Origin: Diphasiastrum complanatum
Lineage: Eukaryota; Streptophyta; Lycopodiopsida; Lycopodiales; Lycopodiaceae
Assembly (NCBI GenBank): GCA_029204225.1
Contig: CM055110.1
Coordinates: 46,825,003-46,889,002, forward strand
DNA length: 64,000 bases
Reading direction: 5' to 3'
Below the pieces are notes generated by a model. It saw nothing but the letters and a program-made list of their open reading frames with translations. It was not told the origin of the DNA and searched no databases. This document shows positions 2,701 through 20,563 of the stretch, piece after piece. The stretch's first letter is position 1. Each line of letters begins with the position of its first letter. The position numbers were made by a program, and so were the translations under genes.

Positions 2701-2828
2701 TTTGTGAGTACTGTATTTTGATTTAACAGATTGTTTGCGAGTTCTACTCTTGTCTGCAAATTCTATTACTCCAGAAAAGTGTAGATTCTTGTCCAAATTC
2801 ACTGTCTTGCAAGTAAACCACCTTTTTT

Positions 2829-4411
2829 TGACCTTTTGTGGCCAAGTACAGTACTGTACTAATCATTTGTATTGTTATTATGTTCCTCATTTTGCATCAT
2901 GTCAAGAGATTGTGCTGAATCTTCTAATCCTCCACCTCCACGCCTAGAACGCAGAATCCCACGCATTGCTGCACCAAAGTACGATGGAGAATCTGACCCA
3001 GTTCGATTTCTTCAAGACTTTGATAATGCATGTCACTTCTATGGAGACACCTTTGACACTGAAAATCTCAGACTATTTCCTATGGTGCTCTATGGAATAG
3101 CCAAAGAGTGGTATCTCAACCTAGAAGTTCCTGATCTTATTTCTTGGAATACCCTCAAAGACGCTCTTATCAAGCGTTTCAAACCTTATAAACTGACTCA
3201 AAGCCCATTCATCCAAATCACACATATCAAAATGCATCGCGAAGAGTTTGTAAGAAGCTACATTGAACATTTTAAACATCTCAAGATAGAATGTGTTGAT
3301 GAGAATATCACCGAACGAATGGCCATCAAATTGTTCACTGGTTGGACTCCCTAAATGTATCCGCCGAAACTGAAACCAGTTGATGTTTATGATCAACTTA
3401 AGGATGTCATGACTGATGCCATTCGCGAAGAAGACGAGGGGTCTGATGAAGACTTTGATTACCGCGACAAGCAATCCAAACGTTTTCACAACCAAAAGAT
3501 TGAGAATACAGCCCAATCTTTAGAACTTTTACATCAAATGGAAACTTGGCAAAAAGCTCAACAAACTCACATGGACAAACTAATTGCTGATTTCCAAAAT
3601 GCTATGAAAACTATTGCTGATAAATCTTTTCCAGCAAGAGAAAATGTCCGGTGTCCTATTTGTTCGCAGAATCACACTGCTAATGAGTGCCCCCAACTGA
3701 AAACCCATTTCCCATTAGCACCCAGACCTATGTCTCATCATCTACCCCTTCACTCCACAACAATCCATGCCACTACTAGGAGTTTATCAACCATGACCAA
3801 CTGCACCCAATCAGTTCCAACCACGCCAACAGTTTGTCGTTAATCAACCCGTTTCACAACCAGCTGTGCATTTTTTTTAATCCAAATTCCATAGATCCAG
3901 CAACTTATTTTGTGGACAACACTACTCCACCAGGATACTCCTCTGAACTAGTGGTATATTATCCGTATGATCCTAATGCCCCAATTTACGATCCAAACCA
4001 AGCTGTGTTCACGACGCAACAATTTCCCGTAATGCTTTATCTGTGCAGGTAAACATCCTAGTATTCGCTGCCCAGACAAACTTCGTTTTCCACCAGCTTG
4101 TGAAAATTGTGGCATTGAACACCATGTTAATAATTGCTCTTCATGTTTGCTCTGACACAGTTGTGTTACTTCTAGGAGATTTACCGATTGATGTTTGTAA
4201 GTCCGTAACCTATGTTGTTTTGTGATTATGTTCTTTTAGTTTGCTCATCTTTTTACTTTTCTTTTTACACACTTTTACGTTATGTTTTTTTCTTGCATGT
4301 CTGTTAGTCAAAGAATCTTTAAAGTACTCAGGCGTAACTTTCAGCTTCTATTCCGAAACATTTAATTGTTGTACAAATTCAGAAAGATCACACAACAACA
4401 TTGCCTTGTGC
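2829..4411 (+). repeat. right arm of the 1.57-kb inverted repeat
   Basis: This is the mirror of 552-2120. It starts in the GACCTTTTGTGGCC region and ends near 4411, after CATTGCCTTGTG. Past that point the flanks (541-551 and 4412 onwards) no longer match. It carries the rightward-reading gag copy. Confidence 0.88.
2899..4155 (+). pseudogene. retrotransposon gag relic (Ty3/gypsy type), right copy
   Basis: The ATG at 2899 opens a gag-like frame: capsid domain with PKYDGESDPVRFLQDFDNAC and IKRFKPYKLTQSPF, then the acidic EEDEGSDEDF segment, then CPICSQNHTANECP, a zinc-knuckle-like CX2CX3HX4C, near 3652-3695. A stop at 3352-3354 interrupts the frame, which resumes at once in the same phase. Two frameshifts follow (about 3840 and about 4040), and the end regains the original phase with a second knuckle, CENCGIEHHVNNC, before a TGA at 4153-4155. 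The two-knuckle layout matches the gag at 36359. There is no polymerase region. In the family this protein packages element RNA; this copy is unlikely to work. Confidence 0.85.
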
Positions 4412-4760: not shown

Positions 4761-5490
4761 ATTTGCCAAAATATAGAGGTTGGTTGTTGCAAAGGTATAA
4801 ATTGGAGTGGTGGCCATGGGGGATGGATTGCCAAGTAGAAGAAGTGTCATTTTTCTCTCTTGTAGTGGGGGTCATCATTTGATACAGTTCCATCACTTGC
4901 TCATTCCAGCTCACAAAATCATTTTCTGTTTGTCACCTTATGGAGATTCTATGTCCACTTCCAATGTTCTACTTGCATTCCTATTGCTTGACATATTTGG
5001 TAGGATGGTTGTCGGAATTATTGTGAGAAGTGAGCTTCTGATAAGGATAACTGCAGCAGATGAAGCTGGAAGTGGTTACAACGGTGGATGGCTGATATGT
5101 ATTGTGGAAAGCATGTTAGGCGCTCGAATTAGCTTACAGAGCCGGCAGTCATGTACATTGGTAGGAAGGTAGAGTGGCCATAATTGTTGTTTGGGCTTAT
5201 AGTGGACAGGTGGCAGATTTTAATTGGATCTGACCACAAATGTTTAAACTCATATGAATTTGGGCCTTTCAATTAAAAGACCCAAACTTTAATTATGCCC
5301 ATTAGCAGGATTGAGCAAACCTGCTACCTAGCAACATGCACCCAATCACCTATCTTTAGTATCTATTTCCTGGTGACAGGTATAGTGCTTCATGTATTGT
5401 GAAGCTGGATCAAGAGCATGGCGAAATTCAAAATAGGTGAGCTCGCCTTCACTTTACAAATACCTAGCTTGCGTACGTATTAAGCTGACA
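4761..5490. other. no gene recognised
   Basis: A plus-strand frame at 4807-5172 opens on GTG and has no family resemblance, so I did not call it. No RNA gene or repeat was seen. Confidence 0.4.
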
Positions 5491-6441
5491 CTACGGATTC
5501 TCGGTTCCTTTATCACTAGGTGCAGACTGGCTGGCGTGAGCGTATTGAGTAGGGGCCGTGGCATCCTCCTTTTCCGCACCAACAAGTGTCAAAAGCGCAT
5601 CATTTTCTGCTTCTGTACAATCAGGAGACATTTTATAGGCGAGCTTCTTTTCAGTCCCATCAACTTCCGAGGCTGTATAGAGAAGCTCACGGCTGAAGCA
5701 GATGAGAGTATGTCCTTGAAATATATGCCTAAAGGAAACAGCATCCTCTTTTGAAGAGGTCACAGTCCATGTTCTAACTCTTTTTACCGCGGGTATGTTC
5801 CAGAAAAAAAATTTCGGATCATGAAAGCAGAGATTGATTGCCAATTTGAACCGGAATCTAGGCAAGGTAGGATCACTTGTGGATGCAGGAATCTCTTCAA
5901 TCTTGAACTCAGTGACCTGAACACCGAGGAAAATTGGCCTATGGCAAATGCAGGAGAATTCATCTTTGTTGCATGTATTGCACCAAACTCTGAATATTAC
6001 ATTGCTGATATCGAGCCAATGAATGAAATCCGCTGATGTGGAACCACCCCAACGAGATATTTCCCCCTGCTTCAAGACCTCCTTTATCTTGTCAATGCCA
6101 GCCGCATACTCTTCTGCTCTTGCAATAGCTGATTGATTTTCCTTATCATCAGACTCGTCAGGCTTCTCTTCGTTTGGCATAAATGATCGAATGTGCCATG
6201 TGATCAGTATTTGGCCAAGTTTCTTACTTGAAACAAGTCCCGTGTTGTCAACATTATCAATGATTTGTTTATTTTTTTCCCCTGCGGGATTTGCTTCCAT
6301 TTCGAGCATCTTAGCAATTTCTGGATCATCCTCCGAAGAACTTTCAATTGAGCGGATGGAAAAAGTTTCTATCTCTGAATCAGTTCCACCCTTGTTTGCT
6401 GCTGAGTTTCTTTCCCGTACGGCTGAAAAGCGTGTTTGCAT
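5491..6441 (-). CDS. hypothetical protein, 316 aa, cysteine-rich motif
   Basis: An uninterrupted ATG-to-stop frame of 316 codons. I do not recognise the family. The N-terminal ~110 residues are acidic and serine-rich (SIRSIESSSEDDPE), likely disordered. The middle and end look folded, with many aromatic residues. A cysteine cluster CNTCNKDEFSCICH (about residues 158-171) has the spacing CX2CX6CXCH and could bind zinc. I see no signal peptide or membrane segment. A frame this long without stops in an AT-rich, relic-filled region suggests a real or recently live gene. It could also be one exon of a longer gene or the coding part of an unrecognised element. Introns, promoter and poly(A) signal could not be fixed. 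Confidence 0.5.
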   Translation of the reverse strand: MQTRFSAVRERNSAANKGGTDSEIETFSIRSIESSSEDDPEIAKMLEMEANPAGEKNKQIIDNVDNTGLVSSKKLGQILITWHIRSFMPNEEKPDESDDKENQSAIARAEEYAAGIDKIKEVLKQGEISRWGGSTSADFIHWLDISNVIFRVWCNTCNKDEFSCICHRPIFLGVQVTEFKIEEIPASTSDPTLPRFRFKLAINLCFHDPKFFFWNIPAVKRVRTWTVTSSKEDAVSFRHIFQGHTLICFSRELLYTASEVDGTEKKLAYKMSPDCTEAENDALLTLVGAEKEDATAPTQYAHASQSAPSDKGTENP

Positions 6442-7238: not shown

Positions 7239-8040
7239 GTAGTTCTGTGTAGTAATATTAGAATAATAGAATACAAAGCTAACTGTGTGTGAGAGAGAAG
7301 AAGGCGAAAAGGCGTCCAAGAGATGCAACGTTGGGGATCCACGGATATTCGTACTTAACTGTTTATACTCTTTCCGTTATCTCACGACAATATGATAGCC
7401 GAGAGGAGGAGAAAAAACGCAGGGTCGCCCAATGAGAGCCGTTCACAAGGGCTTTGTTATTTTTGGGGGCCCCCATGTAACGTGTGAGCCTTTTTGGGCA
7501 AGGCCAGGCCTTTTTGAGCCTCCCCCGTTCTCTTACTTGGCACCACGTCAATAAACCCCGACACCATACAATTGTCCCATGAGTACGAAAGAGCCCAGCT
7601 TTTCAAAAATAAGTTGCATGTTACATCATCCCATATACATATCAAAACCTACCAAGAGTCTCCTGTGTGTGCGCATGAAAGCACAAGCCAGAGGCTTTAA
7701 GATTTCTACATGGTTGCATGGAGAGAGATGGAGAAAGAGAAAAACTACAAAGAGCACTTGCACCCGCAATACCTTCACTTATAATATTTGAGCTTGGAAT
7801 AGTGATAACTTGTAATTGGACCAAAGATCTTGATTTTAGTATAATTAATTTAACATTCATCGATATACATCATACATTAATATTGGACAACCTACACTGG
7901 TTTTTGTGACTACAAGTTTGATGTATCGGGAACAATGTGAAGAAACAGAATGTTTCTAATGTCAAAGCTTTGCTAGCTTTCAATCCTGAAATTTTTGACA
8001 AAAGGCTACACGAGACGACACGAAATCATTCGTGCTCCTC

Positions 8041-8620
8041 AACTGACCAAGAAGATCAGCCAAGTACCATGGGGTACACATATTTGATCAGATGTCATGA
8101 CATCAGCAGAAGTAATCTAGATCGTGGCTAATCTGCCACTCTTGTAATTCGAGATTAGTTGTAGATGTCTAATCCTTCTGATCCGGAAGTTACACGACGC
8201 GACACGAAAAAGTTCGCGAACTATATACTTTCTGTTTGATGCATAATACAAAGAAGAAGATACAGAAGACGAAAATATACAGAATACATGTCCGCCTGTG
8301 AGCGAGACAATTTTGTAGAGGATCTGTAGATCCAGAAGTTCGCTAGTAAGCGAGACACTATTCGTGAGAGAGCTGTATTTCTCTCACGCCAATGCACTAC
8401 GTGGATTTGTCATGTAGTGCTCGAAAAACCAGAAGATCAATAGTTAATATTGTAGCTGTTATGCACTTATTAATCTGTATGATTGACTGATCTCGAATGT
8501 ATTTTTGTCTGATATTATTCGTGTGTCTGATTCACTTGTTTATTTAATTCCGCACATTGGTCTGATTTGTTGAGTGCCAGATTAATTTGTTAACGAAGAT
8601 CAGCAGTGTCTAACTACACT
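8041..8620 (+). mobile_element. LTR-like relic (copia type)
   Basis: The block CGCTAGTAAGCGAGACA, then TTCGTGAGAGA and TTCTCTCACGCC (about 8342-8390), recurs at 28920-28975 next to a copia fragment. A TATA-like CTATATACTT lies at about 8221. I found no PBS or internal domains, so the ends are approximate. Confidence 0.4.
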
Positions 8621-8693
8621 CTGAAGGATTGTAGGAATGACATAGCCGACAGTGACCAGTAGTCATATCTGAATTCCTGACGAACTGATTTTG

Positions 8694-8852
8694 TTCGCGA
8701 ATGTTTTCGCTTTGTGCTTCGTTTCGTTCCGCTTCGTTTCGCGATCACTTGGCTATAAGCGTAAATCAATTTCAGAGCTCACTTAAGTTTCGCTTCGCTT
8801 CGTTTTGTTTTCGTCTAGATTTCGTTTCGTTTCATTTTGTTGCGTTATAGAG
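8694..8852. repeat. TTCG/TTTCG-rich low-complexity tract
   Basis: Irregular reiterations of CGTTTCG, GCTTCG and CATTTTG-type words over about 160 bases. It is not telomeric (no TTTAGGG). Confidence 0.6.
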
Positions 8853-8865
8853 CATGATTGATCCT

Positions 8866-8950
8866 ACACGAATTATTCTCGAACACAAATAATTCGATCA
8901 TGTTACGTTATGATCCAACACGAATTATTCTCGAACGGAAATAATTCGAG
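8866..8950. repeat. duplicated short hairpin (about 48-bp period)
   Basis: Two direct copies of ACACGAATTATTCTCGAAC followed by AAATAATTCGA start near 8874 and 8920. Within each copy CGAATTATT and AATAATTCG are complementary, so each can fold on itself. Confidence 0.75.
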
Positions 8951-9452
8951 TTCGCGGATCTTTTGCGAATTGTTCGTGAGGCCTTTTATTAGTTTGTCAC
9001 CAGAGTTCTGGCTAGAATTTGCATTTTCAGGGTGCAGATTTGTTATCACAATGAGCCTGGGAAAAATGTGTATACAAGCACTAACTGTAGTTGTACTTTG
9101 TCTGACTCAATTCCCTATATAGGATCTTTCCACAATATGGCCAAAGAGTGAGTATCATTTACCAGTAGTTCAAAAGAATCAAAGCGCATAAGCACTATTG
9201 TTTGTTAACATCAACGCGTAAGCAGCTAGTCAAAGGTGGGAATTGCTACCAGATTTAAGGTATTGCCTTGGTCAAACAGCATCAAATCAAACTTAAATCA
9301 TCCTTGACCTCTTTGTGAGACAGTAAATGATGCATGTTTTGTTACGGTTTGAGTCTAAAGAGAACTGATATTTTTGCAAAAGGGTGTTAAACTTTCCACA
9401 AAATATTACCAGCAACTAGATGAACAGTCACTGTGGCCTTCTATTTTTGGTA

Positions 9453-10179
9453 TTATCTTGAAAAATTGTCGGACAAATGACGTCTGCCAGTGGTGGGCAT
9501 CACCTCACATTGAAGCCAAAAATGTTGTTCCATCCATGCAACACAATGTTGAGCAAGGAAATCAATATTTTGAAGAGGCGTTCTGATGTAGCCACATTTT
9601 TGTATCCTATAAGCAATCCTTTGTAAATGATTGTTGCCTAAGCTTAAACCTAATTTGAAATGTTTTGCGACAAGTACACCATTCAAAGAGTACTCAAATT
9701 GCTTGTTCAAACACAAAATAATATTCGCGGACAAATAGACATCTTGTTGGTCGGCATCAAGATCGAAGTAGTATTCTCGAATAGCCTTCAATTTTTTCTT
9801 CTCTAACTTAACCAAACAATTTTTTACACAGCAACGACACCGCATTGCTCTGCAAAGCTCTCCATGAGTCATAAGATGTCAGAATATCAATTGAAAAACT
9901 ATGCACACTACCTAAAGGAGAGATTTTAGGTGTTGTAGATGTGATACTTGTAAAAGGCAACACATATTGACAAGAAGAAAAGGAGAGATTGGATGAGGTA
10001 ATACTATTTTTAGAAACTGGAACTGGTGATTCATTATATAATGAAAAATTTGTAAGACCATTTATCGAGATATGAGACACAATTGATTGTCTCCTCTCTT
10101 CACCATTGTTCACAACCGAGAGCTCATTTGAAAGAAAACTACTACATGACGTAAATGACAACTGATCCATGAGCGTCAA
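9453..10179 (-). pseudogene. N-terminal fragment of a DDE-transposase-like gene
   Basis: Two overlapping minus-strand frames run 10179-9808 (serine-rich, starting near MDQLSFTSCSS) and 9872-9453. The second has a cysteine block CRCCVKNCLVKLEKKKLK and then GVLVAKHFKLGLSLGNNHL. This matches my memory of the N-terminal part of a transposase-like family found in seedless plants, cnidarians and arthropods, with a C(C)xxxCL block followed by a short helical domain. The catalytic part of that family is present elsewhere in the window, on the same strand at 14081-16242. Here the sequence drifts out of recognisable homology after about 9600. The frame change and missing catalytic core mark it as a relic. 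The assignment rests on motif memory, not on a search. Confidence 0.5.
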
Positions 10180-10890
10180 TCACACAAAACTAAAAACCTG
10201 TTTATAGTAAAATGGATATGATAAAATGATTTACATGCATAAATATAAATCTATGGATGGCGGGTAATCATTCTCAATGTAAAAAACAAAGTTCATTTCT
10301 CAAAATCATAATTGCTAAGTTTCTTGACCGTTAAAGAGGCATTTATGAAAATCTTGTAATTAATCTAAAATTGTCATAACCACATATATATTGATTAGTA
10401 ATTATTGCCTAGGCTATACATTGTAATCATTTATTAGGCCATCATGTCGAAAATAAATGTTGAGACTTAAATGCATTTATTTCAGCATAATTACAATATT
10501 ATTAATCTAAATAAGTAATCATTATATTGATTAATAATTAAAAAGAATTAATAAATAAAAAAATAGAGGTAATCATTTAACTTTCTCATATAAAAGAGTT
10601 CTCATTTCTAATTTCCACGTCTCGCTTTGAAGAGATTCGTGGATGTTTGCGCTCATTTGTCGTCTATCCATCAACGATATTTTCAAGCTATTTTCACCAT
10701 CGGTTCGACGAGGCGACGATACTCATGTCCAACATTCACGAAGAGGTACTGTTTTAAGAGAGAATATTTTAATGTTTTATTTATTCTGAATAGATTTTAA
10801 TTCAAAAGGGTGGCCATTTTTTGAAAACACTTTATATTAAAAACATTGCCTAAATTTGGAACTTATTTAGTTTTCATAAATGTAGCTTCT
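10180..10890. other. AT-rich intergenic stretch between divergent relics
   Basis: Very AT-rich to about 10620. A short, less AT-rich stretch with an ATG at about 10724 followed by a GGTACT-type potential splice donor comes next. It could be the leader of the plus-strand relic at 11.4 kb, but I cannot show this. Confidence 0.3.
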
Positions 10891-10900
10891 TCGTTGATTA

Positions 10901-11257
10901 TCACAGGGAATTCGATACACAGAATCGGATTCTTTGTGAAATCCGTAATCTTACCAAAAACAATGAAAACTTACTTATTTCACAGAGAATCTGATATGGA
11001 GTATCGTGTTCTCTGTGAAATGATACTTGTAAACTTCTTCACGTATTCAACTTCACAGAGAATTCGATACACAGTATCGGATTGTCTGTGAAATTCGTGT
11101 GTTTTTAACAGAGAATTCGGTACACCACCGTATCTAATTCTTTGTTAAGTGTATTTTTTAACAGAGAATTCGATACACCGTATCGAGTTCTCTGCGAGGT
11201 TTAATTTGAAATTCATGTTCAAACGAAATGCGATACACCGTATCTGATTATTCATGA
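10901..11257. repeat. array of six imperfect palindromes
   Basis: Six related inverted repeats lie at 10901-10939, 10978-11020, 11052-11092, 11105-11148, 11159-11196 and about 11224-11257. The consensus half-site is CACAGAGAATTCGATAC, facing its complement GTATCGAATTCTCTGTG across 2-6 bases. The last copy is degenerate. Centre-to-centre spacing is about 45-80 bp. The array lies 150-500 bp upstream of the ParB-like relic. No promoter or gene lies inside it. Confidence 0.85.
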
Positions 11258-11399
11258 AAATGCAATTTGGAAAATGATTGCATGAATAATCTTCTATAAT
11301 TTTAGTTGGAAACTCAATGCAATGCAAAGAACTGGTCATTTTCAACTTTTTGTCCCAAATGTGTTGTCTCAAGCATAATTACTCACAGGAAAAAGGGCT

Positions 11400-13640
11400 T
11401 TTTCTTTTTATTTCGAGAAAACCAGATGTTGCATTGGATATGAGCGACAATAAGTGTTGTGGGCTTGTAACTTGGGTGGATTACGAAGGCGAAGGTGATA
11501 TTGATTCAATCATCTTGATTGTTGAAGACCCTTGATCAAGTTCAAAAAGGCTATTTAGCTTAAATGAAAAATTGTGCATAATTGATCATTGTTCCCTTTC
11601 AAAGCGCCTCCGATCCACAACAAATTTGATAGTTTCATTAGGCCCATTCGCTAGGAAGAAGGTACCAGTAGAACCTCCCGTTGATGAAGAGGGCCGCCAT
11701 GAAAACAGACTTGCAATTTCTGTTGAGAAACCAAGGAGGTAGAAGCTATTAGGAATAAAAGGTATGACTGAGTCATCAAAAGAAGCTGTCGTGGTTTCAA
11801 AGAATGCTCCGGACGTTGTGTCAAAGAAGGTTCCAGCCAAGTCTTCCAGAAAGCAGAAAGAGGTAGTAGAAGAAGAGGAAGAATCAGAGGAAGATTCCAA
11901 AGAAAAAAGCCTCTCTGTTTTCCTTGTCACGACTGGGATTTTTAGCAGTGAACAAAACAAAATTCGAGAAAAAATTGATGTGGAAAAATTAGTGAGCAAA
12001 AAAAGCTTTCAACTTCCAATAGAGAAGATTCATAGACCTCCGATTGATGAGGACAGAGGATGGAGGCCCATGCAAGTGAGAGCCCTACATAAGATTCATG
12101 TTTCGAACCTGATGAAAAAAATGAAAAGCAATCCTCATATTGTAGTCCCCTTTATAGTCATTGTGGATCCAAAGGATTGTTTCACAAAAGATGGTTTTGA
12201 TCAATCTCAAGCTTTGAGCTATAATTAATTTGTTACAGGAGGATCACATTTTGCAGAGGCCCGTAGGCAGCTTCGTGCTATGCACCCTCATTCTGTTGTC
12301 TTTCATTTATTGTAAAATTTTTGTTAGCCTCACCTCGGAACAGACAAAACTCTTAGCCTAGAACCATAATAACGATAACGACTATCGTGCAAAAATGTCA
12401 TTTATTGAAAAAAAAATCCGTTTTTTCCATCATGAGTTTGAAGATTATGTTTTGAAACATGAAAAGCCTGATGTGAATTTGAGACGACAATGTCTTACAA
12501 AAATTGGCATTTTTATAGATGAGTCCGAGAAATCAGAGGGCCTTCAAAAATTTGATCCTTTATTCCAGGTTGCTTTTAAGAGGGGTGACATTTGGGATCT
12601 GCAGAACCAAATACTTACAATGTGAGAAAATAAGCAATTAAAAAATCAGAAATATGGACGAATAAAAGATGACTTTGTAGGTGGAACCAAGTCCAAAAAC
12701 AAAATGAAAGACCTGATCATTGAGGAGTTGTCCGATGAGATGAAAAGTCATTTGTGGAGATCTTTGCAAGGTGTTAGGGATGAGATGTCTTTAAATCCAT
12801 CTTGACAAGGGTTGTGAAAAATGAGCTCTCCTTAAAGGAGATGGCAAAAGAGTTTGCAAGGTAAATGATTTAATCAATTTTTTAGGTTTCATGTTTCTAA
12901 TTATTCATAGCGCCACAACAATGTTAGTTTACATATATTTTGTCTTTTTTTTAAATATGTGTTTCTAATGTATTCTATTAATTTTTTTACACATACACAA
13001 AATTTTTATGAGAATTCGAGAAATTATGGTAAAAAGACTTGCATGTTCATCTTGGGATGAAGTTGTGGAACATTATCCTATTTCGAGCTCGCATACAACA
13101 TTGTCGGAGTATTTTCTCTTCTTCAGAAATTTTAAGATATGTGTATCTAGAATTTGATTGAATTCATTCATCATAATCTAAATCTAAAACCTTTTGCTGA
13201 TTTGCTCTTATAATTCGCAGCCAAAGCGTGCTAAGAGCCTAGATATACTTGATTGCCCGCCTAACTTTTTAATGCATATCGAAAGGGCAAAACAAGAAAA
13301 GCTGATGGCCACAATCTCAATTTTCCTCCATGAGTGACGATGAGGTCCTCGATTACATGGATGGGATGTCTCATGAGGACTGCAGGCTCGATGAGAGGCA
13401 GGGAGTTCCATTAGGTGGCTGTCAACCTCCTCTCGCTCTGAGGAGATCCAGTCTCCACGACCCCCTTCAATTGAGGTGTTTTCCCTTCCCACGAGAAACT
13501 CTCTAGCCGGAGTCCCTCCCCCCTGTATGATAATACCAGTGCCTCTTCTCGGCATTCTCAAAAGTGTATGATGTATGGTCCATTCCACTTCCAACCATAT
13601 TTTTATGGCATTGATCAGTTTGTGTCTAGTATCGTAGTAA
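11400..13640 (+). pseudogene. ParB-like domain gene relic
   Basis: One reading phase runs from about 11400 to 12315, broken by in-frame stops at 11533, about 11737, 12226 and about 12313. Downstream, 12325-12800 shows LTSEQTKLLA, then NHNNDNDYRAKMSFIEK (one stop between). Further pieces lie at about 12780-12865, 13010-13150 and 13215-13335. AGGTAA near 12860 and a CAG near 13220 look like splice borders, so the ancestor had introns. Residues SFQLPIEKIHRPPI and then FVTGGSHFAEARRQL resemble the start and the G-x-H-R region of ParB/sulfiredoxin-like nuclease folds. The LTSEQ..LLA..HN block is typical of a family I recall from seedless plants and corals. An acidic, lysine-rich linker (about 11800-11930) precedes the fold. 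The function is unknown to me. The stops show decay, unless some gaps are introns. Confidence 0.5.
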
Positions 13641-14080
13641 AATACAAGTTAGTAAATTTATAGTTGGTGATTTTCCTATTATGGATGGCTTTCATCATTT
13701 TTTTGAAATCTTTTTGGCAAGTAACACGATGACATTTGTTTTGGGACTTTGACCTTAAAAAGAATAACCTTTTTTGGTACTTTTTAATGGTCCTAGTTTA
13801 AGGCCAAAATCATGGTTTTTTTTAAGGATTCTCTAACTTGCAATAAAAAAATATATTAAAAAGTGTCTATTTTCAATGAAGCAATGTAGGTTTTTTTTTG
13901 CAAATTTCATAAAACCATCATAATTACATTCTGCATAACATTTCAGCTTACATTATATTATACATATATTTTTTTCAAAGTACATTTTCTTAGGAATTTT
14001 CACTGATGCCTCTCAATTCATAACTTGACATATTTTGAACACTCTTGTTTTCAATCGATGAGGTGGAAGACCCGTCTTCG

Positions 14081-17020
14081 TCATCTGAGTGACTGACATA
14101 TCGTCCTCAGAATCCGCATCCAATGTTGATAAAAAAAATCTTGTAAGTCAACTTTTCTCTGTTGTTGACAAGTTGACGATGATGGTTGTCTCATCAATCC
14201 AAGTCGTTCATTCAGTATGGCTATAATTGACTTTCGTAGATTATTGGTCATTGTTAGCTCAAAATTAAAAGCCAAAACATCTACATCTTGTAAATTCAAA
14301 TCATCAACTCTCGGTTGGTTTTTTGACAATTGTTTTCTCTTGCCCTTTGGATCTACTTGCAACATTTCAAGTTCGTACCTTCCCCAAAAAGCATTCGTTG
14401 AAGTGGTGCGCAACCAATGGACACGTCGTACTTTTGTCTGATTGTTATTTTGAATGAAACCAAGTACTTTGGCAATCCAAAATGGATGTCTTTCTGAAGC
14501 TAGAAGTGCAACAAGGCTTCCAATTTGGATTTCATTCAGATCATCGTTCCACTTCATTTTTGCAACTTTTACACTTTGCCTATTCTTCTTTGAGCCCACA
14601 TAAATTTCACGTTCCTCACTTTGCACAAGGTCCAAGAAATCATCATATCGAGATACATTTGAAGGTTCGACAATTGTAGTTTAAGTTCCTAATTTATGAG
14701 GCCAATGAAGTTCTTCAGTTGTTGATGCGTGTTCATGATTGAGCGAACCGATTTTTTGTTCCTCGAAAAAGTCCATTCACCAATGCTGATCAAACTCATC
14801 AAAAAATTGATAAGTTGTTTGAATACTTGATTTCAAGAAATTTCATGAGGCAAATGGGTCAATCTCACGATGCTCTCTTTGTGCTTTTTGTTCTTCTAGC
14901 TTGGACTTCAAGGGAGACAACGCAGCAAGCTTGATTTGACCAGATGGCATATTGAACAAAAACCATACTCCTTCGATAGGTAACCATGAAACTGAATTTG
15001 AAAATTGTTTGCCCCATAGCAATGTGATGTCAGTTTCATTACATTTGATTTTGAACTGATGTTGAAAGCTAATCATTAATAGTAGCAACACAACGATTTG
15101 TTTCATTGGATGCCTTAATATATTCACGAAAATCATATGTATGCCTAATTAACGACACATTTGGCTTTGGCATGTATGATACTTCAACAATGTTCTAAAG
15201 TACTGGTAAAGAAAATGCCTTCTTGCGTCTTAGTCTTTTGGAAAAACAACTAAAACATCTGATCAATTTGATCATGGGTGTGACCTACCAACAAAAATCC
15301 TATTTTTATTTTTTTGAATTTTTTTTCTCTACCAACATGGGCAAGAAAGCCAGTACAATTTGATTTTTATTTATCCTAGCAATGTTGTCAAATTGCAAAC
15401 ACAGTATTTCTGGAAGATCATCACCAAATTCGCAAATTATCTTTTGTATAATGGTGATGGTCAAATTTGGATCATTTCGCACATTGGGATAATTGAAAAA
15501 TACTTTCGACTCCAATGTGCCATTAAACACAAGTGCTCCAATGAGATGAACCCGAATCAAATCTGCCTCGTTCAAATTTTTTTGTCAATCTAACAAAATG
15601 AGGTAACATCATTTTCTTCTGATCCATACCATCAATGACAAGGCCTAGATACTTTTGTGGACATTCCAAGCATTTCTTTCGATGTTTCGCCAATTTCTGT
15701 CTTTCAATTGTTTGTTGATCTCTGTGCACTTGAAGCGCTTTTGCAACATCTACTACAAATGTAACAATTAAAATATTTAATAAAATTATGGTAATATCAT
15801 AGCATTAATAATTTGAAAATTCAAAAATCAGCAAAACAATAAATTTTTTAAAGTATTGAAAGTTACTTAATTTTTGCCTTTCTCAACATTGGTCTTTGCT
15901 AGTTGTTTGGTAGATTTTAACAACTCGCATATGTCGAACAAACTATCATTCGTGATTTTTTAGGAATCTTCACCAAGCCAAAATCTCTCTTCCAAGTCCT
16001 AAAAAATATGAGTAACTTAAATAGGCAACATTTTTGGTCTTAGCAAACTCCTTATACATAAAAAATATCTCCAATTTTGTAAAATTATCTAGCAAGTGAA
16101 AATATAATGACTTTGGTAATTTCTCTCCATGCACATCCACAAAATGCTTTAGCCAAGCCATAGCATTCAAAGCACCAGGAGACACAGTTCTACCCTGCAA
16201 TGATCCTTGCAATGTTGGATCTTTTTGAAGTCGTGCGTGCATTCTATGAAAGCATGAATTTCCAATTGCATGAGGCTTTTCAACAACCTCTGTTGCATTA
16301 AAAAATATGTATGCGAGTTTTTGTCAGGTATCACTGTGGCACACAATTAGTAATTATTTTCATCTTTACTTCGCAAAAAAAAAATTATCTCAATTCTTCG
16401 ATTTCTTTGTTGTTTAATTTCTGTAAGCAAGAGGATGAACAACAAATAATGCATCATACCTTCCGAATCTCTTGTTTTGTAATCAATTTTTTTGACGTTT
16501 TCTCAAAATAGGTGAAGATTTCAATTCGTAAATTGATCCCGTGGCACTTGTAGTTGTTGGAACAGGTTGAAAAAAAAGGTGTGAGAATATTTGCCTGAAC
16601 ATCAGGTTGTTATTTATTTTCCTCAACTGGTTCTATCATGTCAGAAAAATCAGGATTCTCAATAACTATAGCTCTTTTGGATTTGATCGAATTCGGGATT
16701 TGAGAAGTGGGTCTTCTTCAAATATGTGAAAAACTTGCAACTCGAGGATCAATTGGTTGACGGAAATATGTAGATTTACTTGAATCCCTGATTGAGTGAA
16801 TTGAATCCTGTGAATCATCACTCCCTAACTCTTTTGATTCGTCAAGATGATTTTGCAATGTTGTTTCTCTAATATTTGAATCTGAAGACGAAGAACTCAA
16901 ATTTGTAACAGGTTGTGTCAAAGGAGTCATTTCCTGAAAATTAGTAAAATGAGAAATTTGATGTTGTTGACGGGAAAACACAAAGGGTAATAGGATGAAA
17001 ACCTGAAGGAGTGGCTTCAC
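14081..17020 (-). pseudogene. DDE-transposase-like gene relic
   Basis: Read leftwards, the parts come in family order. A serine/acid-rich N-terminus (17020-16600, one stop) comes first. Next is GRTVSPGALNAMAWLKHF (16200), then ERQKLAKHRKKCLECPQKYL with VIDGMDQ (about 15640), then ALVFNG and ITIIQKI with LCLQFDN (about 15395). A region with WLPIEGVW (about 14990) follows. Last is a C-terminal domain IGSLVALLASERHPFWIAKVLG that looks like a small chromo/Tudor-type barrel. IDGMDQ and LQFDN carry the two aspartates I expect of the DDE core. I believe Pfam calls this domain DUF7869, which needs checking. Frameshifts near 15570 and several stops between blocks show inactivation; some gaps may be introns. 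The gene converges on the ParB-like relic. Confidence 0.6.
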
Positions 17021-17279
17021 AATTTCATTAGGAATATCAGAAGAGGATGACTCAGATGTGGCTATGTACTGAGTTACAACTACATAAAAAAAAAGAAAAA
17101 TAACTACTTGCCATCACAAAAATATAAAAAAATTGATTCTATTCCTATGCCAAGCATAGACAGAAATAAAAATATGAACGTAAAAATTTCACAACAAACA
17201 AAATTTTTACATTATGCTATGCTAGTCATAGAAAGAGTTGTGATAAATTGCCTATATTGGCAAATCTAGCCATGTAGTC

Positions 17280-17917
17280 TAATGTAAATTTTGTACATAG
17301 TTCAATTCCACACATGTGAGGCCAAGATGCCACGTGGAAATCCACTCGTAATATAGGTTAGGTCGAGTCAAGAGTGATGGGTGTGTCTATTTGGTAGAGA
17401 TCCCCACATTATGGGACCTACCTCTTGATTTGTGATTGACCAACCATCTACCTACCAAGCATGGCTCCAGGAAATAGACTAGGGTTTCATTTTAGGGCAA
17501 AAAGGGTGAGTTAACTTTCTTATTACATGCTAGAAATTCACCTAACTTTACAAAGGAAGTCACTTTTGCTATGTATTCCAAGCTCACATAGTGAGAAGAT
17601 AGATTTTTTTTGGAGCTCATTGGCAATCTCGAGTTTGCTCTCCATGTACATTGATTCTTTGTGATCCAAATAAAACCAGGACTTATTATACTTAAAACAT
17701 TGTCTATAGGCCGTACAGCAGGCTGCTCTTCACACGTGCCACTCGGATTTGTATTTATGTTCAATGATTTAATTGTCAATGCTTGTTGTTTGTCAAATTG
17801 TCAATCTAGATCAATTTTTTGATGACTAGTTTTTTGATAGATTGTTAAGCAAGTACACAATAACTCTTGTCGATATTTCTAAGATCCATTTATGGTCCTA
17901 GAGTATATATTTTCACA
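17280..17917 (+). mobile_element. 5' LTR of a copia element
   Basis: The sequence ends in TTTTCACA directly before a tRNA-Met-like primer site. An inverted relative lies at 4440-4760. The left end is uncertain, because no clear TG start with a matching target duplication was seen. Confidence 0.55.
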
Positions 17918-17930
17918 TGATATCAGAGCC
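17918..17930 (+). other. primer-binding site, initiator tRNA-Met type
   Basis: TGATATCAGAGCC differs by one base from TGGTATCAGAGCC, the usual copia primer site complementary to the 3' end of initiator tRNA-Met. It lies one base after the LTR end and 617 bases before a gag start. Confidence 0.75.
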
Positions 17931-18547
17931 AAGTACAAGGGCTTTAATCATTGACCAAATCTAATCCATTTTTAGCAAGTATTGGTGCTAAAACCTAGTC
18001 TTGTGAGGGTGAGCTAGAAGCTAAGTTTTGGTGAGGGGATTTGATTCCAAACTTGGTAGGCATCCAAATCCATATTGTTTACACGTGTGGGCACCTCTGA
18101 ACCTACATTTAATGCATAATATTCATTTGATCCACAAAATTTCAATTTGAGAGACCTTGATGTAATTTTTGGTGGGAATCCTAGGATAAGCTACCAAGAT
18201 TGAGTGCCATTAATTGGATTTCAATTTGATTCATGAGATCTAATTAATCTAGGCTGAAATCAAGTCCTTCTGAAGTGATTTACAGGTCTTGAAAGTACAT
18301 CAAGCAGTGTGAGGGAGATTGAGTCATTTTTTGTCCAAAAAAAAGCCAAGATTGGCAAGATTTGATTCTTAGTAGAATTCACATCATCTAATCTTCATTC
18401 CATCTTTGTAAGGGAGTGCTTGAACTGAGATTATCAGCCCATTTGTTGGATTAAAAATATAATTTGAGTGAAACACTACAAGATAAACCTTTGTGAGTTT
18501 CTAGAGTCAATCAAGTCCATTTCTTGTTTGTAGAAATCACTAGTAAG

Positions 18548-18763
18548 ATGGGATCTATTGGTGCATACATTCTAGAAGCTAGTGAGAGATTGAATTCTAC
18601 AAATTATGCTATTTGGAAGGTTAGGATGGAGTCACTAATGGTGCTCCAAGACCTTTATGAGTTCTTGATTGAAGATGAAGATGAACCTCTAGGTGCACAG
18701 GAATTGGACTTGACCCACAATCGATATATGGGCACTCGTCTCGTAGTTGGCTACTTCGATTAG
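18548..18763 (+). pseudogene. copia gag, N-terminal fragment
   Basis: The ATG at 18548 (MGSIGAYILEASERLN) is followed by STNYAIWKVRMESLM, the hallmark of copia-type gag starts (LNGxNYxxWKxxM). The frame ends after 71 codons and the rest of the element is missing. A gypsy relic on the other strand begins within about 20 bases. Together with the LTR and PBS at 17.3-17.9 kb it forms the truncated 5' end of a copia element. Confidence 0.75.
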
Positions 18764-18779
18764 CTGGGTAGCCACAGTG

Positions 18780-19995
18780 ATAGGAAATTGGCCTAGTACA
18801 ATTGTATTTTTTGACAACTTTTGCTATGCTCTGGTTCATGCCTTGAGTCAGTCGAAATTTTAGCCCATGTTGGTCTATTAGTTGGACATGTGCCAATTTT
18901 AGTGCGTTGACACTTGTCATGCCCATGCAGTTAGGGCTTTCACTATATGTATTGATTTCCTTTGTTATACAATCAACTTTTGCTTTGCCATCTTTGAGAG
19001 CTTGAGGTGTTTGAGCTATGGTGATTGTGATTGTGATTTGCATACTACAGTGGATCTTTAGAAAGTTAACTCTATGTACACCTAGGTGACCAACACAAGG
19101 TGCATCATGACATTCAAATAAAGTCTTTCTTCTGAAAGCATCGCGCCTTGTTACACATACTTTTCCACCATGAAATAACAATTTGTTACGAATGGAAAAA
19201 TGATCTTTCACCGTTTTGCCTTCCCTTATGATCTAAGCACGTTGCAATTTAGATCCAACAACATTGTGAACCCCACTGCCTGGATAGTACTTTTTGCCAA
19301 CTATGTCCAAAATACGGATCTTTATCACAAAAAATTCAAAGATAGATCAAAATTTGTAGAGATTATTTGTGAAAGAGAATTCACTCACTTCATAGACACT
19401 GCTTAGAGTATTTGCAACTTGATTTCTAATTGCTTTAATATACCACTCCATTAATATACCAAACTTTGAACTCAAATTCTTGCTTCAACTCAATTCATCG
19501 AGCCTTCCTCTTTCTCAAATCACTTTGATTGCAAGAATATCTTAGACATTGATGATCAATGTTCACAGTGAACTTATTACCATATAGGTGATATCTCCAA
19601 CTTTTCAATGCATGATTCACAAAGAAAAGCTCCTCTTTATGAGTAGAATACTATGCTTGCACATTATTCAACTTGTTACTTTTAAATAACATAGGCTTTT
19701 CAATTTGCAACAATATCACTCCAATTGCAAAATCACTAGCATTAATTCTCACCTCATAAGAAAGATCTGGACTAGTGATATGCAAAACTGGAGCTGAAGC
19801 TATGAGATTTTTCAAAGCTCAAAAGCTCTCAATTAACAATTCACTCCATTTTATTGGAGGGCTAGGCCTTCTCTTCGTGCTTATCAATATACAAAAAATG
19901 GCAAAGCTATGAGATTTTTCAAAGCTCAAAAGATGTCAATCAAAGATTCACTCCATTTTATTGGAGGGCTGTGCCTTCCCTTATCGATATACAAA
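18780..19995 (-). pseudogene. Ty3/gypsy RNase H and integrase zinc-finger relic
   Basis: Read leftwards from about 19990: a KWSES..ALKNLIASAPVL segment, then INASDFAIGVILLQ (RNase H start). Next come STHKEELFFVNHALKSWRYH and GNKFTVNIDHQCLRY, then KQEFEFKVWYINGV, and VANTLS at about 19410. These are the successive blocks of gypsy RNase H and its tether. The next part (about 19210-19080) has KLLFHGGKVCVTRRDAFR, then HDAPCVGHLGVHR, the zinc-binding start of the integrase. Several in-frame stops are present. The integrase core, LTRs and RT are not visible. The plus-strand copia gag abuts it. Confidence 0.8.
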
Positions 19996-20012
19996 AAATG
20001 GCAAGAAGACTT
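19799..20012. repeat. tandem duplication, 107-bp period
   Basis: GCTATGAGATTTTTCAAAGC starts at 19799 and again at 19906. Both copies continue through TTCACTCCATTTTATTGGAG to ATACAAAAAATGGCAA. The duplication lies in the RT/RNase H junction of the gypsy relic, so it arose in or after that copy. Confidence 0.9.
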
Positions 20013-20563
20013 CAATAGATTAACTGGCCATCCCATAGCTACCACTACATGTTCTTTTCCTGGGATGCTCATGCTAATTACAAGGAGGAGAGAAAAGAAA
20101 GAGATAATTTCAAGGAGGAATCATGCTTTTATAATTATAAAGCAACATATATGCAAAATGTTAAAACAATCCTCAAGGTTGGAGGTGGTGTGCATCCCTT
20201 GTTGGTAGCAACTAAAGGAAGCTGGCCAGGTTCAATGTGAATGTTGCCAACATAAAGAGAAGCTACTTAGTTGTGTAACGACTAGAACAACCATAATTTT
20301 TAAAACCGTCATGTCATTAGAACAACAGTTTCAACTTTTAAGTTAAGCTTGTCATTACAGCTTAAACAGATTCAGCAAAATTTTGATTTGTTAATCTTTA
20401 CAACCAAGTTCAGTTATACAGAAATGTAGGATCTGTTATTACAGCAAGCTAGTTAGTCAATGGACCATTATCCAGCCCTACTTTAGTTAACACCAATTCA
20501 CAACTGGATGTATCACCCGATGGTTTGGTTAACTGCAGGGCGCTGTGGAGCAAGTGCTTGTAT

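Follow-up and report, generated by a model that had tools for sequence, protein, structure and literature searches.

In ParB-parS partition systems, palindromic sites lie near the gene of the ParB-like protein. A similar pairing in a plant chromosome raises the question of what such sites could be doing there. The window analyzed here (the whole 64-kb stretch, C19:46825003-46889002, of a searched genome of 1,744,706,496 bases [1.74 Gb] in 5176 contigs) contains a group of palindromes beside a decayed gene described in the initial annotation as ParB-like, the palindromes being interpreted as binding sites of the encoded protein or as subterminal sites of a mobile element.

The palindrome array and its neighboring gene

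Using a 16-nt half-site and allowing up to three mismatches, 10 matches were found in the 64 kb compared with 0.64 expected, and none of 100 shuffles reached 10. All lie at 10903-11195 as five inverted pairs, with a sixth, degenerate palindrome beyond them (Table 1). These counts and the gene pieces bear out the annotated layout of six related palindromes (10903-11260) just 5′ of a decayed gene (about 11447-13304). As the N-terminal-like pieces start at about 11447, the array ends ~190 bp before the readable gene.

Table 1. Coordinates of features identified in the 64-kb window
Feature	Position	Strand	Evidence
DUF7869-type N-terminal fragment, first relic (clade A), divergent to the ParB-like gene	9456..9704	-	Open frame 9453-9878
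Palindrome 1	10903..10937		Half-site pair
Palindrome 2	10982..11016		Half-site pair
Palindrome 3	11055..11089		Half-site pair
Palindrome 4, wider center	11108..11145		Half-site pair
Palindrome 5	11161..11195		Half-site pair
Palindrome 6, degenerate	about 11221..11260		11 mismatches to 35-nt consensus
N-terminal region of decayed gene, split between two frames	11447..11742	+	Open frames; by-eye likeness to L034 and L037 N-terminal pieces
ParB-like domain, first part, one in-frame stop	11743..12312	+	Open frames, protein matches
Rest of ParB-like domain and following region	12320..12625	+	57% identity to L047 over 12284-12577; frame 12362-12625
Start of linker leading to methyltransferase region in fuller copies	13221..13304	+	89% over 28 aa to L014:4731 onward
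DUF7869 gene relic, second element	14300..16909	-	47-81% identity to five L053 pieces
Two possible clade-C palindrome remnants	17145-17159, 17217-17231		One and two mismatches, respectively; just upstream of second DUF7869 relic

An in-frame stop and shifts of reading frame interrupt the gene. Open frames on the forward strand span 11743-12228 and 12362-12625, and the piece at 12229-12312 contains FVTGGSHFAEARRQL. DNA identity to one relative (L011) is 86% over 11376-12166, and two protein matches to another (L047), with 54% and 57% identity, fall within 11935-12577. DNA homology to a fuller copy, L014, stops at 13304-13305, short of the methyltransferase catalytic part, which was thus not located in the window.

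The proposed ParB/sulfiredoxin-like signature was recognizable by eye in the order of motifs, but no ParB match to the relic or to the relatives' pieces tried was obtained in Pfam, PHROGs, NCBIfam, or PDB searches, and the fold of a 140-residue window piece, predicted alone, had a pLDDT of 38, too low to use. The ParB-like part of the gene is a putative member of the ParB superfamily. Relatives of the ParB-like part were not identified in the viral contigs or phages searched. The sole tblastn match among plasmids, from Pseudomonas syringae pv. actinidiae, was rejected as a chance similarity (E value of 4 in the collection and 6e−7 as a lone pair); the alignment was short and gapped, and the plasmid protein matched no ParB model, giving NAD_binding_9 only (E value, 0.086). 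In L053, a separate N-terminal open stretch of ~140 residues (5160-5582, minus strand) precedes the ParB-like part and matched no Pfam family.

A second copy of positions 8001-19408 of the window, inverted and 99.9% identical, lies elsewhere on the contig at a distance of ~210 kb (L017/L018, C19:47040000-47057000), which would reflect either recent duplication with inversion or an artefact of assembly.

Fuller copies and the DUF7869 partner gene

Using the ParB-like piece at 11743-12225 as a protein query, the best 150 of 1115 candidates genome-wide were scored, and in many scored copies the matched stretch was free of stops. With the DUF7869 profile, the best 150 of 2953 candidates were scored. 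Both totals include duplicate contigs, and as one derives from a family profile and the other from a single protein they are not strictly comparable. One small contig, C1290 (L025/L026), repeats C6 (L013/L014) at 99.8%, and other small contigs also repeat chromosome copies; this suggests that they are alternative haplotype contigs, and the copy counts are inflated because of these repeats.

In eight loci (L014, L031, L035, L036, L039, L040, L046, and L053), of which L035 and L036 seem to be near copies of each other, methyltransferase-region pieces lie downstream of the ParB-like pieces and on their strand. The piece at L053:2315-2542(-) matched Pfam N6_N4_Mtase (PF01555) with 39.1 bits, above the curated cut-off of 26.7 (E value, 1.1e−9; profile positions 138-203 of 221), across the SAM-binding motif region. 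This match was made in L053 only; corresponding pieces from the other loci scanned gave none and were tied to L053 by tblastn. Three NCBIfam matches to the same piece are DNA methyltransferases, all below their cut-offs, and the best solved chains were MboIIA (E value, 0.004) and RsrI (E value, 0.006), with PvuII at 0.1 and two unrelated surface-protein chains ranking between RsrI and PvuII. Three phage records were also matched, and the two inspected carry a stand-alone N6_N4_Mtase protein beside a C5-methyltransferase. In beta-type amino-methyltransferases, the catalytic (D/N/S)PP(Y/W) motif precedes the SAM motif; the sequence IADIPYEF was seen by eye in L053:2833-3234(-), a piece that by itself has no match among Pfam, PHROGs, or NCBIfam models. 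The fuller gene thus seems to consist of a ParB-like part followed by a DNA amino-methyltransferase and seems to have introns. The initial annotation, made from a single relic, had recognized the ParB-like character of the gene and missed the C-terminal methyltransferase, the divergent DUF7869 partner, and the clade specificity of the palindromes.

The partner gene is represented twice in the window. The fragment at 9456-9704(-) shares 48.8% identity (E value, 2e−23) with L040:329-595(-), the piece immediately preceding a DUF7869-matching one in that locus. Among the loci compared, the relic at 14300-16909(-) is closest to L053 (clade C); its stretch at 15306-15584 matched Pfam DUF7869 (PF25273) with an E value of 1.6e−19 and 70.7 bits, and L053 itself with an E value of 4.9e−47 and 160.4 bits (cut-off of 26 in both cases). 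We take the DUF7869 protein to be a transposase, an assumption to which its copy number (2953 candidates) also points.

DUF7869 lies head-to-head with the ParB-like gene in four places, namely, the window, C6 (L013/L014), L040, and L053. In the window, L053, and C6 (the last with insertions), DUF7869 is on one strand and the ParB-like/methyltransferase gene on the other, with the array between them. In L040, the palindromes are in a likely intron, with none upstream in the stretch examined. C11 (L015/L016) has the DUF7869 gene and an array; the other gene is absent from the stretch examined, the nearest being ~17 kb away among the matches listed. In C18, the array is ~4.5 kb upstream of the gene, and in C4, an array beside a long run of N has neither gene in the readable stretch. 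Upstream of the ParB-like copy in L046 is a frame (2763-3416, minus strand) that resembles a retrotransposon integrase and may have displaced the array of that copy.

Copy number and divergence between copies argue for mobility of the family. An inverted-repeat search of window positions 8500-20500 gave no convincing terminal repeats, no element ends or target-site duplications were found, and the copy pairs compared gave no clear ends. What stands of the earlier proposal of binding or subterminal sites is that the array goes with a repeated family, probably a mobile one, and with the neighborhood of this gene.

For the ParB-like domain, dN/dS in clade B was 0.04 to 0.20 in six pairs (two with dS of ≥1), which indicates purifying selection. 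Values were higher among same-clade relics (0.86 and 0.53 for short pieces of the window and L014; 1.1 to 1.7 for L034, L037, and L046), and between-clade comparisons were saturated. This pattern fits a gene that was selected while the elements were active and then decayed freely. An unrooted protein tree of 16 loci parted clade B from A, C, and D (0.97) and supported groups A (0.99) and D (0.998); clade C is represented there by L053 alone, the L055 and L056 proteins not being included.

Clade-specific palindromes and candidate readers

Three palindromes, A (TCGATAC-nnn-GTATCGA), B (TCGATGC-ant-GCATCGA), and C (CCTATGC-tna-GCATAGG), share one geometry with a 3-bp center spacer. Reading outward from the center, the half-sites are cGTATCGAAT for A, TGCATCGAGT for B, and AGCATAGGTT for C, as derived from 20 A, 24 B, and 44 C hand-picked palindromes that excluded the weakest and stray hits and palindrome 4 of the window. 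Five of the 10 half-site positions are common to all three (G+2, A+4, T+5, G+7, and T+10), an agreement expected by chance at ~2 in 10,000 (1/16 per position) for a similarity chosen post hoc.

Clade-A sites occur in loci found through the half-site (C4, C6, C11, C18, and C21). In loci found through the protein, clade-B sites are upstream in L039, L041, and L043 and within a likely intron in L040. Clade-C sites were found in L053, L055, and L056. L053 was picked because of a nearby DUF7869 match; protein similarity was the sole basis for choosing L054, L055, and L056 (36 to 37% identity to the window query compared with 31% for the L053 copy). The upstream regions of L055 and L056 have 12 and 14 sites, respectively, and L054 has one weak site, no better than chance; relatives selected by protein alone can thus also bear arrays. 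Two clade-D loci (L034 and L037) have one A-like core site. Short telomere-like repeats (CCCTAA type) are present upstream in two clade-C copies (L053:6540-6583 and L055:81-122).

A site scan covered 24 loci, or 19 after near copies (L030, L036, L038, L044, and L048) were dropped; the window's own locus L027 and its twin L028 were excluded. At least two sites were present in 10 of the 19 (L031, L039, L040, L041, L042, L043, L047, L053, L055, and L056), one site in three (L034, L037, and L054), and a weak core only in L029, the C6 copy, in which the array is displaced. The remaining five (L032, L033, L035, L045, and L046), which have short flanks and are mostly decayed copies, had none. Five shuffled sets of the 24 loci gave means of 0 A, 0 B, and 0.4 C sites. 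Since the motifs were drawn from some of the scanned loci, the independent loci are L031, L042, L034, L037, L055, and L056. Relatives without palindromes, which had been expected to tell against the pairing, therefore exist beside others with two or more sites, a mixed outcome. The idea of a fixed distance between gene and palindromes was not upheld, as sites were found 5′ of the gene, within likely introns, and, for L047, ~4 kb downstream of the exon.

Genome-wide, the perfect 25-bp B palindrome occurs at 40 places and its reversed pattern at none. At least 13 of the 40 are within 3 kb of the 150 gene places listed of 1115 candidates, compared with 0.02 expected, and 27 are away from those 150 places (965 candidates being unscored). 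These 13 sites sit at 10 gene places, some of them seemingly on duplicate contigs, and so represent perhaps seven independent copies. In the window, the clade-C pattern with up to three mismatches had three matches compared with 3.15 expected, no excess over chance; the possible clade-C remnants at 17145-17231 rest on their position and a one-mismatch site.

Under a strict array criterion, arrays were called in L041, L043, L053, L055, and L056 (4, 4, 6, 8, and 8 palindromes, respectively) and not in the window, L037, L039, L045, L047, or L054. None of 200 shuffles per locus passed. Among 137 background tiles of 1.5 kb, arrays were called in five, each within the initial 7.5 kb of L009, and in none of the other 132; the five were rejected as a gap artefact, as two places inspected read N and N pairs with N in the scoring.

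Regular unit spacing (31 bp in B; 40 to 42 and 54 bp in C) could also arise if the arrays were unselected minisatellites spread by duplication within a dead repeat family. Conservation in clade-A arrays fits this explanation and counts against the binding-site reading, since the conservation of palindrome columns (74.9% in 704 comparisons) does not exceed that of spacers (78.3% in 483). However, the three sequences keep a center-anchored 3-bp spacer and partly the same half-site, and palindromes also recur scattered outside arrays; we consider a minisatellite origin improbable. Center spacings fell near whole helical turns (10.5 bp) in B (24 spacings; R, 0.80) and C (38; R, 0.69) and not in A (22; R, 0.37), but as duplicated units are not independent, helical phasing was set aside as evidence.

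In the loci compared, site type follows the protein clade of the element. This bears on the possibility that a host DNA-binding protein recognizes the arrays as parts of a promoter or enhancer. Their position between divergent genes in L053 and the window, where a shared promoter would be expected, is compatible with such a role, yet one host protein is unlikely to track three clade-specific sequences, which makes this explanation distinctly improbable. Alternatively, the palindromes could be sites of the DUF7869 protein, serving transposition or self-repression, with the methyltransferase gene a passenger acting elsewhere. Arrays also adjoin the DUF7869 gene in L053 and L015/L016, and DUF7869 candidates outnumber ParB-like ones (2953 and 1115, with the caveat given above for a profile and a single protein). 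Sites within likely methyltransferase introns (L040, L043, and L053) would nevertheless be odd for transposition, and no array was observed at element ends, as the ends themselves were not located; we regard this alternative as rather unlikely.

A possible self-addressing transposon and its known counterparts

What was observed directly is the decayed copy and its relatives, the arrangement of the genes at four places, the methyltransferase domain of relatives, and the clade-specific arrays. From these we favor, with evenly divided confidence, the reading that a DNA transposon carrying head-to-head DUF7869 and ParB-like/methyltransferase genes left its relic in the window. The array between them would be bound by an element-encoded dimer, and the methyltransferase (or the transposase) would read the array of its own clade. 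Because sites lie in its likely introns and its clade tracks the site type, the methyltransferase protein is the better candidate reader. In the proposed mechanism, a dimeric element-encoded protein, putatively the methyltransferase, would read the palindromes at many sites and mark or occupy the array, an anti-silencing activity by which both divergent promoters would stay open. The array would diverge in step with the protein, so that each clade recognizes mainly its own copies. The outcome is probably that the promoters of the element are kept open or that self copies are marked. More tentatively, and with some doubt, these elements may be plant transposons in which a bacterial-type DNA amino-methyltransferase with a ParB-like reader marks its own kind through a private palindromic address for each clade within one geometry. 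Such addresses would form a self/other code that coevolves with the protein reading it, and the enzyme could be a source of adenine or N4-cytosine methylation in a land plant.

Compared with ParB-parS systems, the sites here are many and clade specific, a methyltransferase lies within the gene, and a partition role is unlikely inside a chromosome. The partner gene matches the profile of DUF7869, a family to which Pfam assigns no function, and no papers mentioning DUF7869 were found in the partial literature searched. Likewise, among the titles and abstract openings listed, again from a partial literature, none described the present pairing. As far as the available text of the source describes it, Bce_0392 of Bacillus cereus is a bacterial ParB-methylase fusion (PMC5512222) and similarly joins a ParB-like part and an amino-methyltransferase within one protein. 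The present family differs in that its ParB part was seen by eye only and in being a repeated plant family with probable introns and palindrome arrays.

In the main text, as available, of a 2025 survey of eukaryotic adenine methylation (PMC12695648), the terms "ParB," "land plant," and "lycophyte" are absent. If our reading is right, a transposon-borne amino-methyltransferase bears on the disputed adenine methylation of plants, as it could deposit or confound the signal.

The closest parallel in array anatomy may be the VANDAL transposons of Arabidopsis, whose VANC proteins, according to excerpts of the published account, bind tandemly repeated short motifs in the introns and intergenic stretches of the elements that encode them (PMC5735166; see also PMC10398659). 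In both cases, a plant transposon carries densely arrayed short motifs, both intronic and intergenic, and the motif varies between families. VANC motifs, as given in those excerpts, are same-orientation 9-mers (YAGTATTAY), whereas the present family has palindromes, an amino-methyltransferase gene, and a DUF7869 partner. It is the array anatomy that is comparable, and a VANC-type anti-silencing function is putative. If right, this family would represent a second solution, unrelated to VANC, to how a plant transposon finds its own copies, and with three sister codes of common geometry in one genome, the coevolution of site and reader would be directly testable.
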